A stretch of DNA of 25,133 nucleotides. Source: a virus. Below are positions 5,021 through 10,907 of this stretch, piece by piece (the first letter of the stretch is position 1; each line of letters opens with the position of its first letter). The notes beneath the pieces are model-generated. The model was not told the origin of the DNA. It ran no database searches and saw only the letters and a list, made by a program, of their open reading frames with translations. The stretch lies in the IMG/VR virus record IMGVR_UViG_3300010883_000419, positions 1-25,133 of that record; one strand, 5' to 3'. Made by a program: the position numbers and the translations under genes.

Positions 5021-5348
5021 TGACCCAAAGTGGCTTGTTTTTAAAGGCGATCACCCATATTTTGAGGATGGAGTACCTTACACTCACAGAATGTATAGTG
5101 AATGGTCGATTAAAAATCAGCTTGATGGAGGTGTTAAAATTCAAACCATTAAAGGCAGATTGTCTGTTGCTCATTTTTGCCAGCCTGATCATTTGTTAGC
5201 TCCTAAAACTCTAAAACATAAAGTCGAAAAAAATAAAGAGTTAAGGGGATTTTGCAAAGAATCGAGGGACGCTAGGCTAATATGTTCACGGCTTGACAGC
5301 CCGCAAGAAGCTTTTAGCCAAAAATGGTTAAGCAGGAAACTTTTGTGA
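5007..5348 (+). CDS. Hypothetical early protein
   Basis: A 113-residue basic protein with no recognised domain. The N-terminal half has an aromatic pattern (PKWLVFKGDHPYFEDGVPYTHRMYSEWSI), and the C-terminal half is rich in Lys, Arg and Glu. It begins 14 nt inside the previous gene and ends with a 4-nt GTGA overlap with the preferred NinB start at 5345. Its place between a replication-type gene and NinB suggests a nucleic-acid role, but nothing in the sequence proves it. Confidence 0.6.
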   Translation: MPAANDPKWLVFKGDHPYFEDGVPYTHRMYSEWSIKNQLDGGVKIQTIKGRLSVAHFCQPDHLLAPKTLKHKVEKNKELRGFCKESRDARLICSRLDSPQEAFSQKWLSRKLL

Positions 5349-5791
5349 CTGAAGGAGATTATGTATTTATAAAATCAAAAGGAGATGTTGAAAAGCGTCT
5401 CCCTTATTTGCTTAAAAGGCTAAATGACTGGGATTACTTTACTCCTTTAGCAATTAAGTTTGAGCGATATTCAGATCCCCGAACAATCAGCCAGAATAAA
5501 TTATTCCATAAATGGTGCGATCAAATGTCAAAGCACTTTATTAAGCGAATAGACACGGCTACAAAAGAAAATATTAAAATGATGATGAAGCAAAGGTTTC
5601 TTGGAACCTATGACATAGTAATAGGCAAAACGGTTATCGAAGGTCAGGTAAAAGCGTCTAGTAAGCTTACAAAAGGCGAAATGGTACATTTTATGGATAA
5701 CGTGTATCATTGGGCTAAAGACAACGGGGTGCTGCTGATTGTTCCAGAAGATAGCGAGTATCAGAGGATGAAGCAAAAGCAGGATAGATAA
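5345..5791 (+). CDS. ninB: NinB-like recombination protein
   Basis: A 148-residue protein resembling lambda NinB/Orf, which binds ssDNA and SSB and assists recombination in place of RecFOR. Supporting patterns are 'SDPRTISQNKLFHKWCDQMSKHF', typical of the conserved QN..(W) region, and a C-terminal 'LTKGEMVHFMDNVYHWAKDNG...PEDSEY' region. I chose the GTG at 5345 over an in-frame ATG at 5324. AGGA (5334-5337) is 7 nt upstream of the GTG, the GTG overlaps the previous stop as GTGA, and the ATG has no ribosome site. The protein would act with the DUF1071/YqaJ/SSB set encoded upstream and with NinG downstream. Confidence 0.72.
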   Translation: MTEGDYVFIKSKGDVEKRLPYLLKRLNDWDYFTPLAIKFERYSDPRTISQNKLFHKWCDQMSKHFIKRIDTATKENIKMMMKQRFLGTYDIVIGKTVIEGQVKASSKLTKGEMVHFMDNVYHWAKDNGVLLIVPEDSEYQRMKQKQDR

Positions 5792-5792
5792 T

Positions 5793-6971
5793 ATGTCCGG
5801 AATTGATCCAAGAATATTAAAAGAATACGCTGAAACAGAAAGGCAACATCAAATTATTGACGCAGTAATTGAATGCGGCTCAAATCAAAAAGCATCAAAG
5901 AAATTAAAATGCGACAGAACCACAGTTGATAAAAGCATTAAAAGGATGGAAAGGTATGCTGCTAGGGAAGGTGTAGCCCCGCATAGGGACTTAATACACA
6001 AGACAGCAGAAGGCTTTGAAGCCAAGCGAATATCAACAGCATATAAAGCTGACGGGTCTGTAGGACTTCAGTGGGTAATTCAGGAGCCTGAAAAAAAGAG
6101 TCTAAAAGAACGTTTAGAGTTAATGATAGATGGTGTTAAAGATGACTTAAAAGGCTTTAAAAAAGCAGTTAAAGAGCCAGCAAAAGTTAACGCTGACTAT
6201 CTGGCTATGTATATGATAGGCGATCACCATTTTGGTATGCTTGCAGATTCAGAAACCAAGATTGACGATGATGATTGGGATGTAAAAATAGCGACTAAAA
6301 TATTAGTTGATGCTACTGACAGGCTGGCTAATAGAGTAGGCAATGCAGAAGTCGGTGTTTTGCTTAATGTAGGCGATTTTTTTCATGCCGATTCTAGCGC
6401 AAATACTACCACCAAAGGTACACCCGTTGATGTTGATACCCGTATAGGTAAGACATTTAAACTTGCTGGCAGACTATTCCAGATACTTATTAACAAAATG
6501 TTATTAACCCACAAAGAAATTGTGGTTATTAATGTAAGAGGCAACCATGATTCAGATATGGCTTGTCACCTGTCCAGTTCGTTAGAATTGCTATATAGCC
6601 AAGAACCTCGCGTTACCATCCTACCAAACTACTCAAAGTTTATTCATTATCAATGGCACAACAATCTATTCGTATTCCACCACGGGGATAGAATGAAGCA
6701 TGAGCAAATACTTCAAACGGTAATTAAAAACTTAGATGACCAGTGGAGCCAGTCGAAAAACCGCTATTGTCACCTTGGTCATATACACCACCATATCGCC
6801 AGAGAAATAGGTTCTATGCACTTTGAGCATTGGGGAAGCCTTACAAGCACAGATCAGTGGCATTCAGATTCTGGTTACGGAGCAGAGCGATCAATGACAG
6901 CTGTCGTATATCACAAAGACAACGGTGAAGATTCGCGGGTTAAAATAACGGTAGGAGCATTAGATGAGTAA
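5793..6971 (+). CDS. HTH-metallophosphoesterase (SbcD/Mre11-like phosphatase fold)
   Basis: A 392-residue protein. Residues ~1-60 form a homeodomain-like HTH (NQKASKKLKCDRTTVDKSIKRM), residues ~60-130 a charged linker, and ~135-380 a calcineurin-like metallophosphoesterase. All metal-binding motifs are present: GDHH (143-146), GDFFH (194-198), GNHD (250-253), HHGD (296-299) and GHIHHH (329-334). This class includes nucleases and phosphodiesterases such as SbcD. With a DNA-binding HTH, and with NinB and NinG as neighbours, a DNA end-processing or structure-specific nuclease role is likely, but the substrate is unproven. It begins 1 nt after the NinB stop and overlaps the next gene by 8 nt. Confidence 0.88.
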   Translation: MSGIDPRILKEYAETERQHQIIDAVIECGSNQKASKKLKCDRTTVDKSIKRMERYAAREGVAPHRDLIHKTAEGFEAKRISTAYKADGSVGLQWVIQEPEKKSLKERLELMIDGVKDDLKGFKKAVKEPAKVNADYLAMYMIGDHHFGMLADSETKIDDDDWDVKIATKILVDATDRLANRVGNAEVGVLLNVGDFFHADSSANTTTKGTPVDVDTRIGKTFKLAGRLFQILINKMLLTHKEIVVINVRGNHDSDMACHLSSSLELLYSQEPRVTILPNYSKFIHYQWHNNLFVFHHGDRMKHEQILQTVIKNLDDQWSQSKNRYCHLGHIHHHIAREIGSMHFEHWGSLTSTDQWHSDSGYGAERSMTAVVYHKDNGEDSRVKITVGALDE

Positions 6972-7152
6972 TGTTTTGCGATTCCCCCCTAAAGGCATAA
7001 CGGTTACAAAAATGGATTGCGAATGCGGATACCCTCTTGAGTTTTGGATGGGAGACGATGACTGTGCTTATGGAATGTGTGGTCGATGCAATCTTGAACA
7101 CCTTGATCAAGTAACTGTTCCTTCAGATGATATACAGGATTGGACGCATTGA
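6964..7152 (+). CDS. Small zinc-ribbon protein
   Basis: A 62-residue protein with four cysteines in a CxC...CxxC pattern (Cys19, Cys21, Cys39, Cys42), compatible with one structural zinc site, in an acidic C-terminal background. It is sandwiched between the metallophosphoesterase (8-nt overlap) and NinG (4-nt overlap), so it is certainly part of this operon. Function unknown; small zinc ribbons at this place in phage nin-type regions may be nucleic-acid or protein adaptors. Confidence 0.7.
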   Translation: MSNVLRFPPKGITVTKMDCECGYPLEFWMGDDDCAYGMCGRCNLEHLDQVTVPSDDIQDWTH

Positions 7153-7574
7153 GTAAAAAGAAATCAACTATTGCACAAGAAATTGATAAAGCGGCAAAGC
7201 TACTGCAACGCTATGTAAGGCTGAAATCATCCGATGACAACGGTTACTGCCAGTGCGTTAGTTGCGGGAGAATAGCACATTACGCGACGATGGATGGCGG
7301 GCATTATTATAGCCGTCGACATATCAGGTTGAAGTGCTTTGAAGAGAACGTGCATCCCCAGTGCAAGCGGTGCAATATGCTGATGAGCGACCCTGTTATT
7401 CATGACGCGTACAAGGCATTTATGGTTGATATGTATGGCGAAAGAAGAGTAAAGGCCATGAAAAAAATAACTTATTTGCCGCCTAAAAAGTTTAATAGGG
7501 ATGAAGTGATCCAATTCTCGCGTGACCTGAAAGAACGCATTAAAAATGAGGAGTGGCGCGTTGGAGAGGTTTAA
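7149..7574 (+). CDS. ninG: NinG/Rap-type recombination endonuclease
   Basis: A 141-residue protein of the lambda NinG (Rap) family, structure-specific endonucleases that act on recombination intermediates such as Holliday junctions and D-loops. Diagnostic patterns are 'CQCVSCGRIAHYATMDGGHYYSRRH', with a CxxC zinc pair and the GHY motif, then 'FEENVHPQCKRCNMLMSD', with a second CxxC and the N..QC..CN core, and 'Y...M...YGERRV'. The preferred start is TTG 7149: AGGA (7136-7139) lies 9 nt before it and it overlaps the preceding stop as TTGA. An in-frame TTG at 7140 would leave no room for that ribosome site. Last gene of the operon. Confidence 0.88.
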   Translation: MSKKKSTIAQEIDKAAKLLQRYVRLKSSDDNGYCQCVSCGRIAHYATMDGGHYYSRRHIRLKCFEENVHPQCKRCNMLMSDPVIHDAYKAFMVDMYGERRVKAMKKITYLPPKKFNRDEVIQFSRDLKERIKNEEWRVGEV

Positions 7575-7576
7575 AC

Positions 7577-7633
7577 ATGATCCTGAACGTGTCGTATTTT
7601 TGCAGTGATCTGTCCTTGTCTTTGCCTATATAA
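7577..7633 (+). CDS. Possible 18-residue leader peptide
   Basis: An 18-codon frame starting at ATG 7577, 8 nt after a good ribosome site (GGAGAGG, 7563-7569) at the end of the NinG gene. Its stop codon (7631-7633) lies inside the first palindrome of the operator pair. The peptide is Leu/Ser-rich with no recognised feature. It may be fortuitous; listed because of the ribosome site. Confidence 0.2.
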   Translation: MILNVSYFCSDLSLSLPI

Positions 7634-7676
7634 CTAAAAGTTATAAAAGGGTCCTGGTTATAACAACAAGTTATAA
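7629..7676. promoter_or_regulatory. Pair of perfect palindromic operator-like sites
   Basis: Site 1 is TATAACT-AAA-AGTTATA (7629-7645). Site 2 is TTATAAC-AACAA-GTTATAA (7658-7676). Both share the half-site TTATAAC/GTTATAA core, and their centres (7637 and 7667) are 30 bp apart, close to three helical turns. They lie directly upstream of the promoter at 7705-7733. The size and spacing suit two dimers of a small HTH regulator such as the Cro-like protein encoded at 3719-3931, but that pairing is inference. Confidence 0.6.
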
Positions 7677-7704
7677 AATAATATCGCATCAATTAACAAT
7701 AAAG

Positions 7705-7733
7705 TATACTTTGTCGATTATTTAAATTAAAAT
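7705..7733 (+). promoter_or_regulatory. Promoter P2 with conserved start-region motif
   Basis: TATACT (7705-7710), a 17-nt spacer and TAAAAT (7728-7733). ATTCAATAAAT follows after exactly 4 nt (7738-7748), the same geometry as at 1771/1776 and 8211/8216. The -35 is weak by consensus, so this promoter may depend on the factor that binds the upstream palindromes. It drives the gene at 7765. Confidence 0.55.
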
Positions 7734-7764
7734 ATACATTCAATAAATCGATAAGGAAGAAATT

Positions 7765-8142
7765 ATGAAATTAGGTACTGAAACAGGCTCTCTTATAAAT
7801 TATATCTACTCAACTGCTTGTTGCGAAGATATTAAAATTGGTGACCCCGCTACTTTAACAGGTTGGACTGATCGCTACGCGGCTACGGTTTCAAATTTGT
7901 TTACCAAAGGCAAATATGACTATATCTCGGTTCAACAAGATATTGCTGATGTTGTTGGCGGCACAGGTTACGGAGATGAGGTTTATGAATATAGCCGAAA
8001 TCCTAACGCTCACGAAGTTACATTCCGAATAGTAGATGGTCGGTTAAAACCTGTCTACAAAAGCGAACATGGCCGCTGGGTAAAAGGCAGTGGAGGTTGC
8101 TACGTAGGACGGAGAGACCAATACAGAGACCCATCATTCTAA
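7765..8142 (+). CDS. Hypothetical early protein (KLGTETGSLIN type)
   Basis: A 125-residue protein in a transcription unit of its own, flanked by promoter P2 and a GC hairpin. The opening 'KLGTETGSLINYI' and the 'GDPATLTGWTDRYAATV' segment (about residues 26-42) are patterns I recall from uncharacterised phage early proteins. The C-terminal half is basic and Gly/Tyr-rich. The N-terminus also resembles the start of the protein at 8612-8863 (HPETGAEIANLIN). There is a clear ribosome site (AAGGAAG, 7752-7758). Placement under its own operator-controlled promoter suggests a timed or highly expressed product. Function unknown. Confidence 0.75.
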   Translation: MKLGTETGSLINYIYSTACCEDIKIGDPATLTGWTDRYAATVSNLFTKGKYDYISVQQDIADVVGGTGYGDEVYEYSRNPNAHEVTFRIVDGRLKPVYKSEHGRWVKGSGGCYVGRRDQYRDPSF

Positions 8143-8149
8143 ATCAACC

Positions 8150-8163
8150 GCCCCTTCGGGGGC
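8150..8163 (+). terminator. GC hairpin with TTCG tetraloop (possible terminator)
   Basis: GCCCC (8150-8154), the stable TTCG tetraloop, GGGGC (8159-8163), 7 nt after the stop of the 7765 gene and just before the next promoter. There is no T-run on the + strand, so it is an imperfect intrinsic terminator or an RNA-stabilising 3' hairpin. Confidence 0.45.
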
Positions 8164-8182
8164 AAATTAGTTTACAAAAAGG

Positions 8183-8211
8183 TTTACAGTAGTGTATATG
8201 CCATATAGTAT
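8183..8211 (+). promoter_or_regulatory. Promoter P3 with conserved start-region motif
   Basis: TTTACA (8183-8188), a 17-nt spacer and TAGTAT (8206-8211), then ATTCAATCAAT after 4 nt (8216-8226), identical to the motif after P1. A second TTTACA lies at 8171-8176. It drives the gene cluster 8248-9676. Confidence 0.75.
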
Positions 8212-8247
8212 ATACATTCAATCAATCAAAAAACAAAGGCTAATCAA

Positions 8248-8610
8248 ATGACTATTGAAACTGTAAAGCAAAACCTTGAACTGCTAATTGCTAACATTCA
8301 GCCATCTTATAAAAATTGGGATGGTGATCTAATTGACCTGACAGATTACGACAAAGATTCGGCTTGTTATAAATTTCTATTGCAAATGGACAGCTGGTTA
8401 GACGATGTTCTTCCACCATGTATTAGTAATCAAAAATACTTTTTGGATGTGTTATATATGGATATCGAGTCTGATGCGTGTTCAAACTTGCTGAAGAATG
8501 CTATCTATTTGCACCTTGAACCTTTGTTGCGCGATTTAGTGCAAGAGGCGTATTATATTGTTAACAACATCCAACCTGAACCTTTTGCTGGATATGAGAG
8601 GGGAGAATAA
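8248..8610 (+). CDS. Hypothetical acidic early protein
   Basis: A 120-residue acidic, apparently all-helical soluble protein rich in Leu, Asp and Tyr. No domain is recognised. It is the first gene after promoter P3, whose predicted start site lies about 30 nt upstream, and it ends 1 nt before the ATG of the next gene. Acidic early proteins of this size can be host-directed inhibitors or DNA mimics, but nothing here establishes that. Confidence 0.7.
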   Translation: MTIETVKQNLELLIANIQPSYKNWDGDLIDLTDYDKDSACYKFLLQMDSWLDDVLPPCISNQKYFLDVLYMDIESDACSNLLKNAIYLHLEPLLRDLVQEAYYIVNNIQPEPFAGYERGE

Positions 8611-8611
8611 A

Positions 8612-8863
8612 ATGATTAGATTACACCCCGAAACAGGGGCTGAAATTGCAAACCTGATTAATACCATTGACGCGTCAGAAATCATGCTGAGAAAATCAGG
8701 CACCGACCTAATTGAACAAATGTATTGGATGTCCAAGAAATTTAAAGCAATTATTTCCTTAACAGAAAATTACGGAATACCGCATTCTAATTATAATTTA
8801 GCTGTTAAAAATATGAAGCTTGATATGTACGCAAACGCTACACTCTCAGGAGAAGCAGAATGA
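8612..8863 (+). CDS. Hypothetical early protein
   Basis: An 83-residue, mostly helical protein of unknown function. The start is the ATG at 8612, preceded by GGGGAG (8600-8605). A longer in-frame reading back to a TTG at 8558 would overlap the upstream gene and lacks a ribosome site. The N-terminus (RLHPETGAEIANLIN) echoes the protein at 7765 (KLGTETGSLINYI), which may reflect a shared short motif. It overlaps the next gene by 4 nt (ATGA). Confidence 0.65.
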   Translation: MIRLHPETGAEIANLINTIDASEIMLRKSGTDLIEQMYWMSKKFKAIISLTENYGIPHSNYNLAVKNMKLDMYANATLSGEAE

Positions 8864-9111
8864 AAACTACGGATTATAATGGCTGGACAAATCGAAACAC
8901 TTGGCTTGTAAATTTACATTTTGGTGGTATATTGCAAGATTGTGCTAATGATGACGGTGAAATTTCTACTTTAATTCAAGAAATTTTTCTTGATCACCTT
9001 GATCTGGAAACTAAACATCTGGATGCTACTGTTATGGATTTTTTAGATATTGAAGGAATTAACTGGGATGAACTTGCCGAATGGTATAAGGAGGGTGCAG
9101 ACCATGCTTAA
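8860..9111 (+). CDS. YNGWxNxxTWxVNL-family phage protein
   Basis: An 83-residue acidic protein opening with YNGWTNRNTWLVNLHF (about residues 5-20). This signature is widespread in small uncharacterised early proteins of many phages; I believe it corresponds to a DUF family but will not state the number with certainty. The C-terminal part is Asp/Glu/Leu-rich and helical. The start overlaps the previous stop (ATGA). The last codons overlap the next gene by 8 nt and contain its strong ribosome site. Function unknown; early expression under P3 is inferred. Confidence 0.75.
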   Translation: MKTTDYNGWTNRNTWLVNLHFGGILQDCANDDGEISTLIQEIFLDHLDLETKHLDATVMDFLDIEGINWDELAEWYKEGADHA

Positions 9112-9274
9112 TAATCATTCTGTTAGTTATACGCAAATTAAAGATATTGATAAAGCCAAGCTAGAACGCCAAGAAAATCGTATCGGATTAATTGGTTCAG
9201 TGGTTTTGTTTGCTCTTTATTGTATTGTTTCAACTATGGAGTATAACGACTGTATTAACTTAGGGGTATGCTAA
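9104..9274 (+). CDS. Small single-pass membrane protein
   Basis: A 56-residue protein: a polar N-terminal ~27 residues containing a charged helix, then one hydrophobic segment (about residues 27-45) and a short Cys-containing tail. I chose the ATG at 9104 because AAGGAGG (9088-9094) is an ideal ribosome site 9 nt upstream. An in-frame TTG at 9050 lies deep inside the upstream gene. First of three consecutive single-TM proteins. Function unknown. Confidence 0.65.
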   Translation: MLNNHSVSYTQIKDIDKAKLERQENRIGLIGSVVLFALYCIVSTMEYNDCINLGVC

Positions 9275-9480
9275 TGCAAATTCTTATGGGAATATTAGTC
9301 TGTTCTGCTTTACTGGTAATGCTACAGGGTTCATGGCTGATGGTCATGGACGCAGAAGAACGGCATAAAAAGCGTCAAGAAAAAAAGCACATCGAAGCTG
9401 ATGACGAACCAGACAATCACTGGGTAAGGCTACGAAAAGCTTATCCAGCAATAGAAAAAGAGGATATCCACAATGGATAA
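9274..9480 (+). CDS. Small membrane protein with charged cytoplasmic tail
   Basis: A 68-residue protein with an N-terminal hydrophobic segment (about residues 2-24) followed by a highly charged Lys/Glu/His/Asp region (29-68). The ATG at 9274 overlaps the preceding stop as TAATG and has AGGGG (9262-9266) 7 nt upstream. An ATG two codons earlier (9268) is too close to that site. Expected in the inner membrane with the charged tail in the cytoplasm. Second of three membrane proteins. Function unknown. Confidence 0.65.
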   Translation: MQILMGILVCSALLVMLQGSWLMVMDAEERHKKRQEKKHIEADDEPDNHWVRLRKAYPAIEKEDIHNG

Positions 9481-9676
9481 TGTGAAAAAGTTTATTGACA
9501 AAGCGCATAAAAGTGCTGACAAAGCCATTTCAAGGGCGCAGAAAAATGCGTCTAGTCTTGATATAGAGCCAATTAAAGAGTGGATGTTTAAGCCGATAGT
9601 TGTAAAACAGATTTACTTTTTTGGGGCTTATGTGGCATTGTTTCTCATAGCAATGTACAAGCTGTTTAGTTTTTAG
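9473..9676 (+). CDS. Small tail-anchored membrane protein
   Basis: A 67-residue protein with a basic, alanine-rich amphipathic helix (about residues 1-30) and a C-terminal hydrophobic segment (about 44-64) ending almost at the stop. It overlaps the previous gene by 8 nt and has AGAGGA (9461-9466) as ribosome site. Last gene of the P3 operon, followed by a long non-coding region. Small early membrane proteins in phages often act in superinfection exclusion or host membrane remodelling; here that is only a possibility. Confidence 0.65.
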   Translation: MDNVKKFIDKAHKSADKAISRAQKNASSLDIEPIKEWMFKPIVVKQIYFFGAYVALFLIAMYKLFSF

Positions 9677-9963
9677 TCAACCGAGGTGTCATTACCTCTC
9701 CGACCAGAGTGATCCACTGGTGGTTAGTACGGATCAGGCCGAGGTTACTTTTGACCTTTTGACCCAGACTTGTCCACTGGGGAGCCGAAACGGACTTTAT
9801 ACCATAGATGGTATTAAAGGCATCAACATCAATCATTTCAAATCATACTGTTTAGTCTTTATAATTGCGATCCACTAACCAACTGGATACTACCGTGATT
9901 ATTTACATGATTATTTTCATCCTCGCCTCTCTGTCAGCCGTAGCCGTTGACGATCTAACATAG
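9677..9963 (+). ncRNA. Hairpin-array region, candidate structured RNA
   Basis: No gene is convincing here. Hairpins found by eye: GAGGT/ACCTC (9683-9698); ACCAG/CTGGT with a 9-nt loop (9703-9721); AGGTTA/TGACCT followed by TTT (9742-9760), which could terminate the upstream operon; CCCAG/CTGGG with a 9-nt loop (9763-9781); CTTTATACCA/TGGTATTAAAG with one bulge and a TAGA loop (9795-9819); ATCCA/TGGAT with a 9-nt loop near 9870-9888. The second and fourth hairpins are near-copies (CCAGAGTGATCCACTGG and CCAGACTTGTCCACTGG). No tRNA or known RNA family is recognised. Confidence 0.4.
9895..9963 (+). CDS. Possible 22-residue hydrophobic peptide
   Basis: A short frame from GTG 9895 (or ATG 9907) to TAG 9961-9963, encoding a very hydrophobic peptide with an acidic end. 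No good ribosome site is visible. The stop abuts the -35 of the next promoter. Probably chance, noted for completeness. Confidence 0.12.
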   Translation: MIIYMIIFILASLSAVAVDDLT

Positions 9964-9993
9964 TTTACATTTCAGTTTAAAACCCGCTACAAT
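9964..9993 (+). promoter_or_regulatory. Sigma70-like promoter for modification/late region
   Basis: TTTACA (9964-9969), then TACAAT (9988-9993) with an 18-nt spacer. It lies 30 nt before the gene at 10024 and is the last promoter-like site I find before the long run of modification and virion genes. The ATTCAATCAAT motif of P1-P3 is absent, so it may belong to a different temporal class. Confidence 0.6.
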
Positions 9994-10023
9994 ACCCTAG
10001 CTTAACTGCCACAGGGTTAAAAT

Positions 10024-10287
10024 ATGACTAAAAAAACAATATCATGCTTACTTGGTGAGTGTGCTTTATTGCAGATGCCTGACTTGCTTGAGGAGTTTAA
10101 CGGCATTATGGACTCATTTTGTAGCGGCACCTCTCCTAGTTATTTAACAATAAATGAAATTGATTCATGGTGCTTAAAGGTAACTAATGCAATTGACTGT
10201 AATAAATCTAATGTCGGAATTGCACTAGGCGATATAGTTGATATTAGAATCAATGTAAGCAATAAAAAATTCGGGACTGAGCAATGA
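10024..10287 (+). CDS. Hypothetical protein, first gene of modification operon
   Basis: An 87-residue soluble protein with four cysteines (near residues 8, 13, 33 and 50) not arranged as a clear zinc motif, and no recognised domain. It is the first gene after the 9964 promoter and overlaps the ParB-like gene by 4 nt (ATGA), so it is co-expressed with the base-modification genes. Its size and lack of similarity to anything I recognise prevent a functional guess. Confidence 0.65.
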   Translation: MTKKTISCLLGECALLQMPDLLEEFNGIMDSFCSGTSPSYLTINEIDSWCLKVTNAIDCNKSNVGIALGDIVDIRINVSNKKFGTEQ

Positions 10288-10907
10288 ATCTAGCAATAAA
10301 TTACAAAGAAACTAAAGAAATAATCCCTTACATAAACAACTCAAGAACCCATAGTGAATCGCAAGTTCAGCAAGTGGCGTCAAGCATTAAAGAATTTGGA
10401 TTTACCAACCCTATCTTGATAGATCAAGATGGCGGGATTATAGCTGGCCATGGTCGGCTCTTAGCGGCTCAACTGCTAAACTTGAAGACTGTCCCAACAA
10501 TAACGATAGAAGGTTTAACTGAATTCCAGAAAAAAGCGTACGTTATCGCGGACAACAAGCTTGCTATGAATTCAGGATGGAATGAGGAATTGCTTCGTCT
10601 TGAAATAGAGGCTTTGCAAGAAATAGACTTTAATCTTAACGTAATAGGCTTTGATGACGGTGAGCTTGCTACTTTGTTTTTGGACATTGAAGAGGGTGGT
10701 ACTGATGCGGAAGAAGAGTGGGACAATATGCCTGAATTCGACCAACCCGACGATACAAGCTTCAGAAAAATTATAGTGCATTTTGATACGCCGGAGGACG
10801 TGGCTGAATTTTGTTCTTTAATAGGCCAGCCTGATACTGGCAAAACAAAGTCAATTTGGTATCCGCAAAAAGAAAGAAACGACTATGAAGCAATGAGATA
10901 TAAATGA
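10284..10907 (+). CDS. ParB-like domain protein
   Basis: A 207-residue protein. Residues ~1-95 form a ParB/Srx-like domain: 'I.PYINNSRTHSESQVQQVASSIKEFGFTNPILID', the nucleotide-site motif GIIAGHGRLLAA (51-62), and ADNKLAMNSGW (89-99), typical of phage ParB-like proteins. A helical region and an acidic linker follow, then a small C-terminal domain (about 155-205, FRKIIVHFDTPEDVAEFCSLIG). This is not a plasmid-partition ParB (no HTH). Proteins of this type often accompany phage DNA methylases or base-hypermodification enzymes, and ParB domains can bind or hydrolyse CTP. Here it overlaps the glycosyltransferase gene (ATGA), so a role in the modification pathway is inferred. Confidence 0.82.
   Translation: MNLAINYKETKEIIPYINNSRTHSESQVQQVASSIKEFGFTNPILIDQDGGIIAGHGRLLAAQLLNLKTVPTITIEGLTEFQKKAYVIADNKLAMNSGWNEELLRLEIEALQEIDFNLNVIGFDDGELATLFLDIEEGGTDAEEEWDNMPEFDQPDDTSFRKIIVHFDTPEDVAEFCSLIGQPDTGKTKSIWYPQKERNDYEAMRYK

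Follow-up and report, generated by a model that had tools for sequence, protein, structure and literature searches.

The gap between two genes of a phage record contains two back-to-back copies of an RNA element of about 60 bases with a pseudoknotted fold (9679-9736 and 9737-9797), and we put the probability that 9679-9797 belongs to a structured RNA family at about 95%. The window, the whole stretch of DNA analysed, is a virus record of 25,133 bases in which NinB, NinG, a ParB-like gene and terminase genes follow one another in this order. The gap is bounded by the gene of a 67-aa small membrane protein (9473-9676, + strand, with a C-terminal membrane span), whose TAG stop codon occupies 9674-9676, and by an 87-aa gene that starts at 10024. 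A preliminary description had read the whole of 9677-9963 as an array of hairpins and a candidate non-coding RNA. The RNA is upheld for 9679-9797, where compensatory changes are abundant and a + strand reading is indicated, but the array is not: the unit is a junction with a pseudoknot, present once or twice, and the remainder of the gap holds a promoter-like site, an inverted repeat and a micro-ORF.

Each domain is a three-way junction of the helices P1, P2 and P3 with an added pseudoknot, formed between the 9-nt P3 loop and a tail that lies immediately 3' of P1. In domain 1, which was delimited by the alignment and pair counts (all parts of both domains are on the + strand), P1 joins 9679-9683 to 9721-9725 (AACCG/TGGTT) and starts 2 nt downstream of the TAG stop codon. 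The P2 hairpin spans 9683-9698 (GAGGTG..TACCTC), with G9683 contested by P1 and P2, and is followed by J23 (9699-9703), by P3 (9704-9707/9717-9720, CCAG/CTGG, loop 9708-9716) and, after P1 closes, by a linker (AGTAC, 9726-9730); the pseudoknot pairs 9710-9715 with 9731-9736 (TGATCC/GGATCA). Domain 2 has related copies in other loci and is matched by the covariance model R1 at 9734-9798 with 71.8 bits, a score to be read knowing that the window unit itself belongs to the R1 training set. Its P1 consists of 9737-9740 paired with 9782 and 9784-9786 (GGCC/G-GCC, with A9783 bulged), its P2 of 9742-9745/9754-9757 (AGGT/ACCT) and its P3 of 9764-9767/9777-9780 (CCAG/CTGG, 9-nt loop 9768-9776); a linker (GAAAC, 9787-9791) leads to a pseudoknot of four pairs (9772-9775/9792-9795, GTCC/GGAC), compared with six in most relatives. 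The two near-identical hairpins noticed at the outset, CCAGAGTGATCCACTGG at 9704-9720 and CCAGACTTGTCCACTGG at 9764-9780, are confirmed (60 nt apart and 82% identical). These 17-nt hairpins are the P3 stems of domains 1 and 2; as short hairpins they do exist, but each belongs to a larger domain with a pseudoknot and supplies, through its 9-nt loop, one strand of that pseudoknot. The folding energy, which the preliminary description had proposed to compare with shuffled sequence, does show an excess, but a modest one (z of -1.44 for the gap 9677-9963 and of -1.91 for 9677-9822). Because the gap folds only mildly better than shuffles, thermodynamics could not carry the RNA claim, and it is the comparison with relatives that is decisive for regarding 9679-9797 as more than chance structure.

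Searches of viral contigs show the predicted element to be widespread in uncultured phages. A search with the neighbouring ParB-like protein yielded 80 loci; the gap is 97% identical in one of them (L001) and partially similar in many others. Placed side by side, these loci share one unit of about 60 nt, single or double, in which P1 (e.g. GACCA/TGGTC) encloses P2 (AGGY..RCCT) and P3 (CCAG/CTGG), and the P3 loop pairs with the tail (TAGTCC/GGACTA). R1 matched 30 times across the window and the 80 ParB loci together and 84 times in loci fetched by DNA pattern, and two further DNA patterns brought in other sequence types. Across the family, P1 also appears as GACTA/TAGTC, GATCG/TGATC and GTAGCA/TGCTAC, P3 as CAGG/CCTG and CTAG/CTAG, and the pseudoknot strand as TGGTTC, TGCCGC and TGATGC, with others besides. 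A strict descriptor detected 332 cores (in 297 fetched viral loci), whereas a shuffled pass gave 3. These cores correspond to 299 arrays, 31 of them double, and to 202 distinct sequence contexts, the latter being a fairer count than loci since some of the fetched loci overlap on the same contig; the domains form 45 clusters at 80% similarity. Long contigs mostly hold one site, and L134, L317, L330 and L354 hold more. The copies in L134 (5900-5971 and 12905-12963) are divergent: one closely follows an apparent tRNA 3' end, and the other, with an extra hairpin in its junction, lies shortly upstream of an intrinsic terminator. Pattern matches in three loci (L114, L132 and L138) have no loop-tail pairing and were set aside as chance.

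Among isolate phages, a DNA search with the element returned no true match, and neither R1 on six nor R2 on eleven isolate relatives gave one, a comparison that has no positive control among isolates. A DNA-pattern scan of bacterial species genomes produced 51 matches, about the chance expectation; only two of these could pair at three further positions, and both were rejected as they lack the rest of the element. R2 gave no match when run on 390 genomes from a single order, 385 from a single class and 4 individual genomes, a thin sampling in which few candidates were scored.

The comparative evidence comes from two alignments. The first, of 22 units, was made with MAFFT from sequence only and was not fitted to the structure; it contains 36 double-change cells versus 10.5 +/- 2.4 in shuffles and at most 6 in slid controls, and RNAalifold picks P2 and the pseudoknot helix from it unprompted. 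R1 describes the nested helices only, with the pseudoknot left out, and an alignment of 74 sequences was built by a model without the pseudoknot. In this larger alignment 95.6% of cells are paired, there are 252 double-change cells (71 +/- 12 in shuffles, at most 20 in slid controls) and the covariation score is 0.530 versus 0.215. All helices, including the pseudoknot, are backed by compensatory changes, so that the covariation check proposed in the preliminary description found such changes abundant in homologues. Four of the six pseudoknot pairs change on both sides, with 96.2% of cells paired, and the proposed pairs rank as the strongest covarying column pairs by mutual information with APC correction. 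Outside the helices, the conserved bases are the U that opens the pseudoknot, the A after it and an AC before the tail. The DNA patterns fixed some bases, and the invariance in loci fetched with them is therefore partly imposed; taken by themselves, the 20 rows from loci fetched with the ParB protein have these pair changes and conserved bases too. Finally, G-U pairs number 37 and A-C mismatches 6, and the RNA is therefore read on the + strand.

These observations also bear on the idea of a site acting at the level of DNA (an operator, an origin or a packaging mark) or of mere chance hairpins. The gap does contain inverted repeats, one of which (9796-9819) may be an operator, but the G-U excess on one strand, the covariation of the pseudoknot and the fixed sense orientation behind genes leave this explanation scarcely credible. 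The coat-protein or packaging array and the DNA landmark suggested earlier are likewise disfavoured, as copies stand behind unrelated genes and on either genome strand, yet in sense at a stop codon.

The positions of the copies show that the predicted element stands at the 3' end of the preceding gene, directly behind its stop codon. Of 106 distinct domains, 91 have an upstream stop that ends between -8 and +14 nt from P1, with a mode at -1. TAG makes up 57 of the 81 adjacent stops versus 169 of 1215 (14%) across all long ORFs, and the upstream genes belong to 12 unrelated families according to BLAST. Counted against a tie to the stop codon is that compact phage genomes place any intergenic element partly near stops. 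Three settings recur. A long non-coding stretch may separate the RNA from the next gene, as in the window; the RNA may follow an ssb-like gene, 16-20 nt ahead of the next gene; or it may lie at a convergent operon end, in the order stop codon, RNA and intrinsic terminator (a hairpin and T run). Past the stop there is no shared reading frame, and all three frames close, mostly after a short variable distance. The three settings, together with this lack of a shared frame, favour a 3'-UTR element. The next gene follows at anything from 0 to several hundred nt, which ties the RNA to the upstream gene, and a 3'-UTR role linked to that gene is highly probable. A pseudoknotted fold directly behind a stop, mostly UAG, would also be expected of a stimulator of stop-codon readthrough or frameshifting; the closed frames and a P2 length that varies regardless of frame make such a function very improbable.

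Genes related to that of the 67-aa protein, which has a weak holin-family match (phrog_689, E 0.0043), are the most frequent immediate upstream neighbours of the RNA. In L317, L330 and L354 convergent operons carry one copy per strand, and the minus-strand copies directly precede intrinsic terminators. A scan for intrinsic terminators, taken as a G+C-rich hairpin with a T run right behind it, found none on the + strand of 9677-10023, and a strict scan from the domain end to 150 nt beyond found none in 101 domains, a random control also giving 0.

In the window the RNA comes after NinB and NinG, at the site where Psychrobacter phage Y8A has Q. This position would suit a transcription element that acts on RNA polymerase in the manner of HK022 put and replaces Q at the early/late boundary. 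PF06530 was found in none of 25 RNA-bearing records searched versus two of three relatives without the RNA, in a search that covered this single Q family and contigs that are incomplete. Some copies lie mid-operon behind an ssb-like gene and others immediately ahead of an operon-end terminator, which speaks against the proposal, since antitermination would make little sense there; the copies before terminators weaken the idea of an antiterminator in place of Q. Both put and the element are short phage RNAs; put is cis-acting, about 70 nt long, lies in early transcripts downstream of early promoters and acts on RNA polymerase. It consists of two stem-loops with no pseudoknot described (PMC9378689), which also counts against the proposal; the element, with its different fold and position, does not have this pair of adjacent stem-loops behind an early promoter. 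An antiterminator, among the functions first suggested, is possible but disfavoured, and replacement of Q is improbable. The NinB/NinG region of the window (5324-10904) has no PF06530 Q gene, and Psychrobacter phages with a similar gene order have one.

A scan of the window against Rfam 15 with gathering and E-value thresholds gave nothing near any cut-off, and nine loci scanned in the same release gave 0 matches, the ribozyme and xrRNA models included. A literature search, whose coverage is incomplete especially for subscription papers and preprints, returned no description of the element; motifs of a 2010 survey that have no Rfam number (e.g. the marine Ocean-VI) fall outside the comparison. 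The L17 downstream element (RF01708) is likewise a structured RNA conserved in the 3' UTR of bacterial mRNAs (PMC2864571). In contrast to the element, it accompanies a single gene family, in Lactobacillales and Listeria, and the Rfam scans gave no match to it. An RNA with a pseudoknot and strong covariation, found in hundreds of contigs from uncultured phages at stop codons of unrelated genes and lacking an Rfam entry, suggests that these phages share an unstudied step in the control of their mRNA. Its short, well-defined fold and the covariance models would permit exonuclease, cleavage and reporter assays without the host.

Several mechanisms could act through such a fold. A self-cleaving ribozyme for trimming phage transcripts where genes end would fit a compact pseudoknotted fold of about 60 nt, intergenic sites in phages and tandem copies, but the failure of any Rfam model, ribozymes among them, to match, the small number of invariant unpaired positions and the lack of an evident cleavage site make it doubtful. 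A better candidate, though still an unlikely one, is a regulatory element: the fold would be bound by a host or phage RNA-binding protein, or by a metabolite, that regulates the gene upstream or the one downstream, or it would be the body of a small RNA derived from the 3' UTR. The few conserved bases outside the helices, present also in loci that were not fetched by pattern, and the copies that lie 16-20 nt before the next start, near the ribosome-binding site, are in keeping with this. The neighbours are diverse, however, with 12 upstream families and no common pathway, and downstream the next gene is often separated by hundreds of nt or missing on that strand.

We infer, tentatively and at somewhat below even odds, that the likeliest mechanism is a compact mechanical block to RNA decay. 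The knot would halt decay at the end of the gene, by stopping either exonuclease progress or RNase entry, and would thereby stabilise or separate adjacent segments of phage transcripts; alternatively, a stable fragment derived from the 3' UTR might be left over. Because P1 in many copies opens with the final base of the stop codon, a terminating ribosome should keep P1 open, and folding would be possible only between ribosomes. It counts against a decay block that copies which precede terminators should already resist 3' exonucleases and that many gammaproteobacteria are not known to have a 5'-3' exonuclease such as RNase J.

Along the strand, flavivirus xrRNAs consist of P1, P2 hairpin, P3 hairpin, P1, linker and tail, in this sequence. 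The element resembles the mosquito-borne type (e.g. Zika xrRNA1) in helix order and three-way junction, in the pseudoknot between P3 loop and tail, and in lying in 3' UTRs, often in tandem. Zika xrRNA1 is a three-way junction with a loop-tail pseudoknot (PK2, L3-S4) (PMC7603331), and xrRNA works as a mechanical block of general effect, which halts bacterial RNase J1 as well (PMC5760640). Unlike these RNAs, the element has a P1 that follows P3 without a linker, occurs in DNA phages and also mid-operon, and has no Rfam similarity. For PK1, the pseudoknot at the 5' end of xrRNAs, alignment columns 1-3 (the bases 5' of P1) have no covarying partner, in a test that would miss invariant pairs, and a linker from P3 to P1 that could hold such a pseudoknot is lacking. 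As this 5'-end pseudoknot finds no support, which also counts against the decay block, we do not file the element as an xrRNA. That DNA phages of bacteria evolved, on their own, a knot or ring of the xrRNA kind that is located at stop codons and blocks decay enzymes mechanically seems rather improbable; if true, it would extend the class of exonuclease-resistant RNAs beyond the RNA viruses in which they are known. The sib retroregulator of phage lambda and bacterial REP elements also set the stability of upstream mRNA through a 3' structure, as proposed here. They are simple hairpins or RNase III sites and, unlike the element, have no conserved pseudoknot.

The remainder of the gap contains features of other kinds. 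The strong hairpin noticed earlier is present (CTTTATACCATAGATGGTATTAAAG at 9795-9819) but is no general part of the element: a stem directly follows the domain in 38 of 103 cases versus 25-43 at control offsets, and a general P4 hairpin was therefore dropped. The inverted repeat TTTATACCATAGATGGTATTAAAG (9796-9819, unstranded), which takes the form ATAYCAT-N-ATGRTAT in most near relatives and is operator-like or a hairpin, is not part of the general RNA family. It sits just upstream of a conserved -10 box and is a possible operator for a phage regulator. The promoter scan gave a promoter-like site at 9837-9865 (TTCAAA-17-TATAAT, + strand), whose -10 box (9860-9865) is conserved in relatives and which would drive a 22-aa micro-ORF. 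The third hairpin of the preliminary description (ATCCA/TGGAT, 9-nt loop) is present at 9870-9888, just before the micro-ORF, but is not kept in most relatives: it is found in the window and L001, altered in L038 and missing from the others.

The statement that no coding frame explains the gap fails at 9895-9963 (+ strand), where the micro-ORF, with a GTG start, encodes the conserved peptide VIIYMIIFILASLSAVAVDDLT; it is a neighbour of the RNA and not part of it. Between the window and six relatives, substitutions by codon position are 32/22/88, that is, 88 at third positions versus 54 at first and second positions together, and many loci encode peptides resembling it. In L314, L317 and L354 a micro-ORF-like sequence ends a longer frame (51 aa in L317). 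A second promoter-like site (TTTACA-18-TACAAT, 9964-9993, + strand) precedes the 87-aa gene at 10024. In L038 and L131 a similar ORF of 145-169 aa (TEKWKEKTAQELKFYSEPTMVS.. and TEQWKEKIAKELKSYNEPTMVS..) separates the RNA from the conserved block downstream, an insertion that recurs at the same place.
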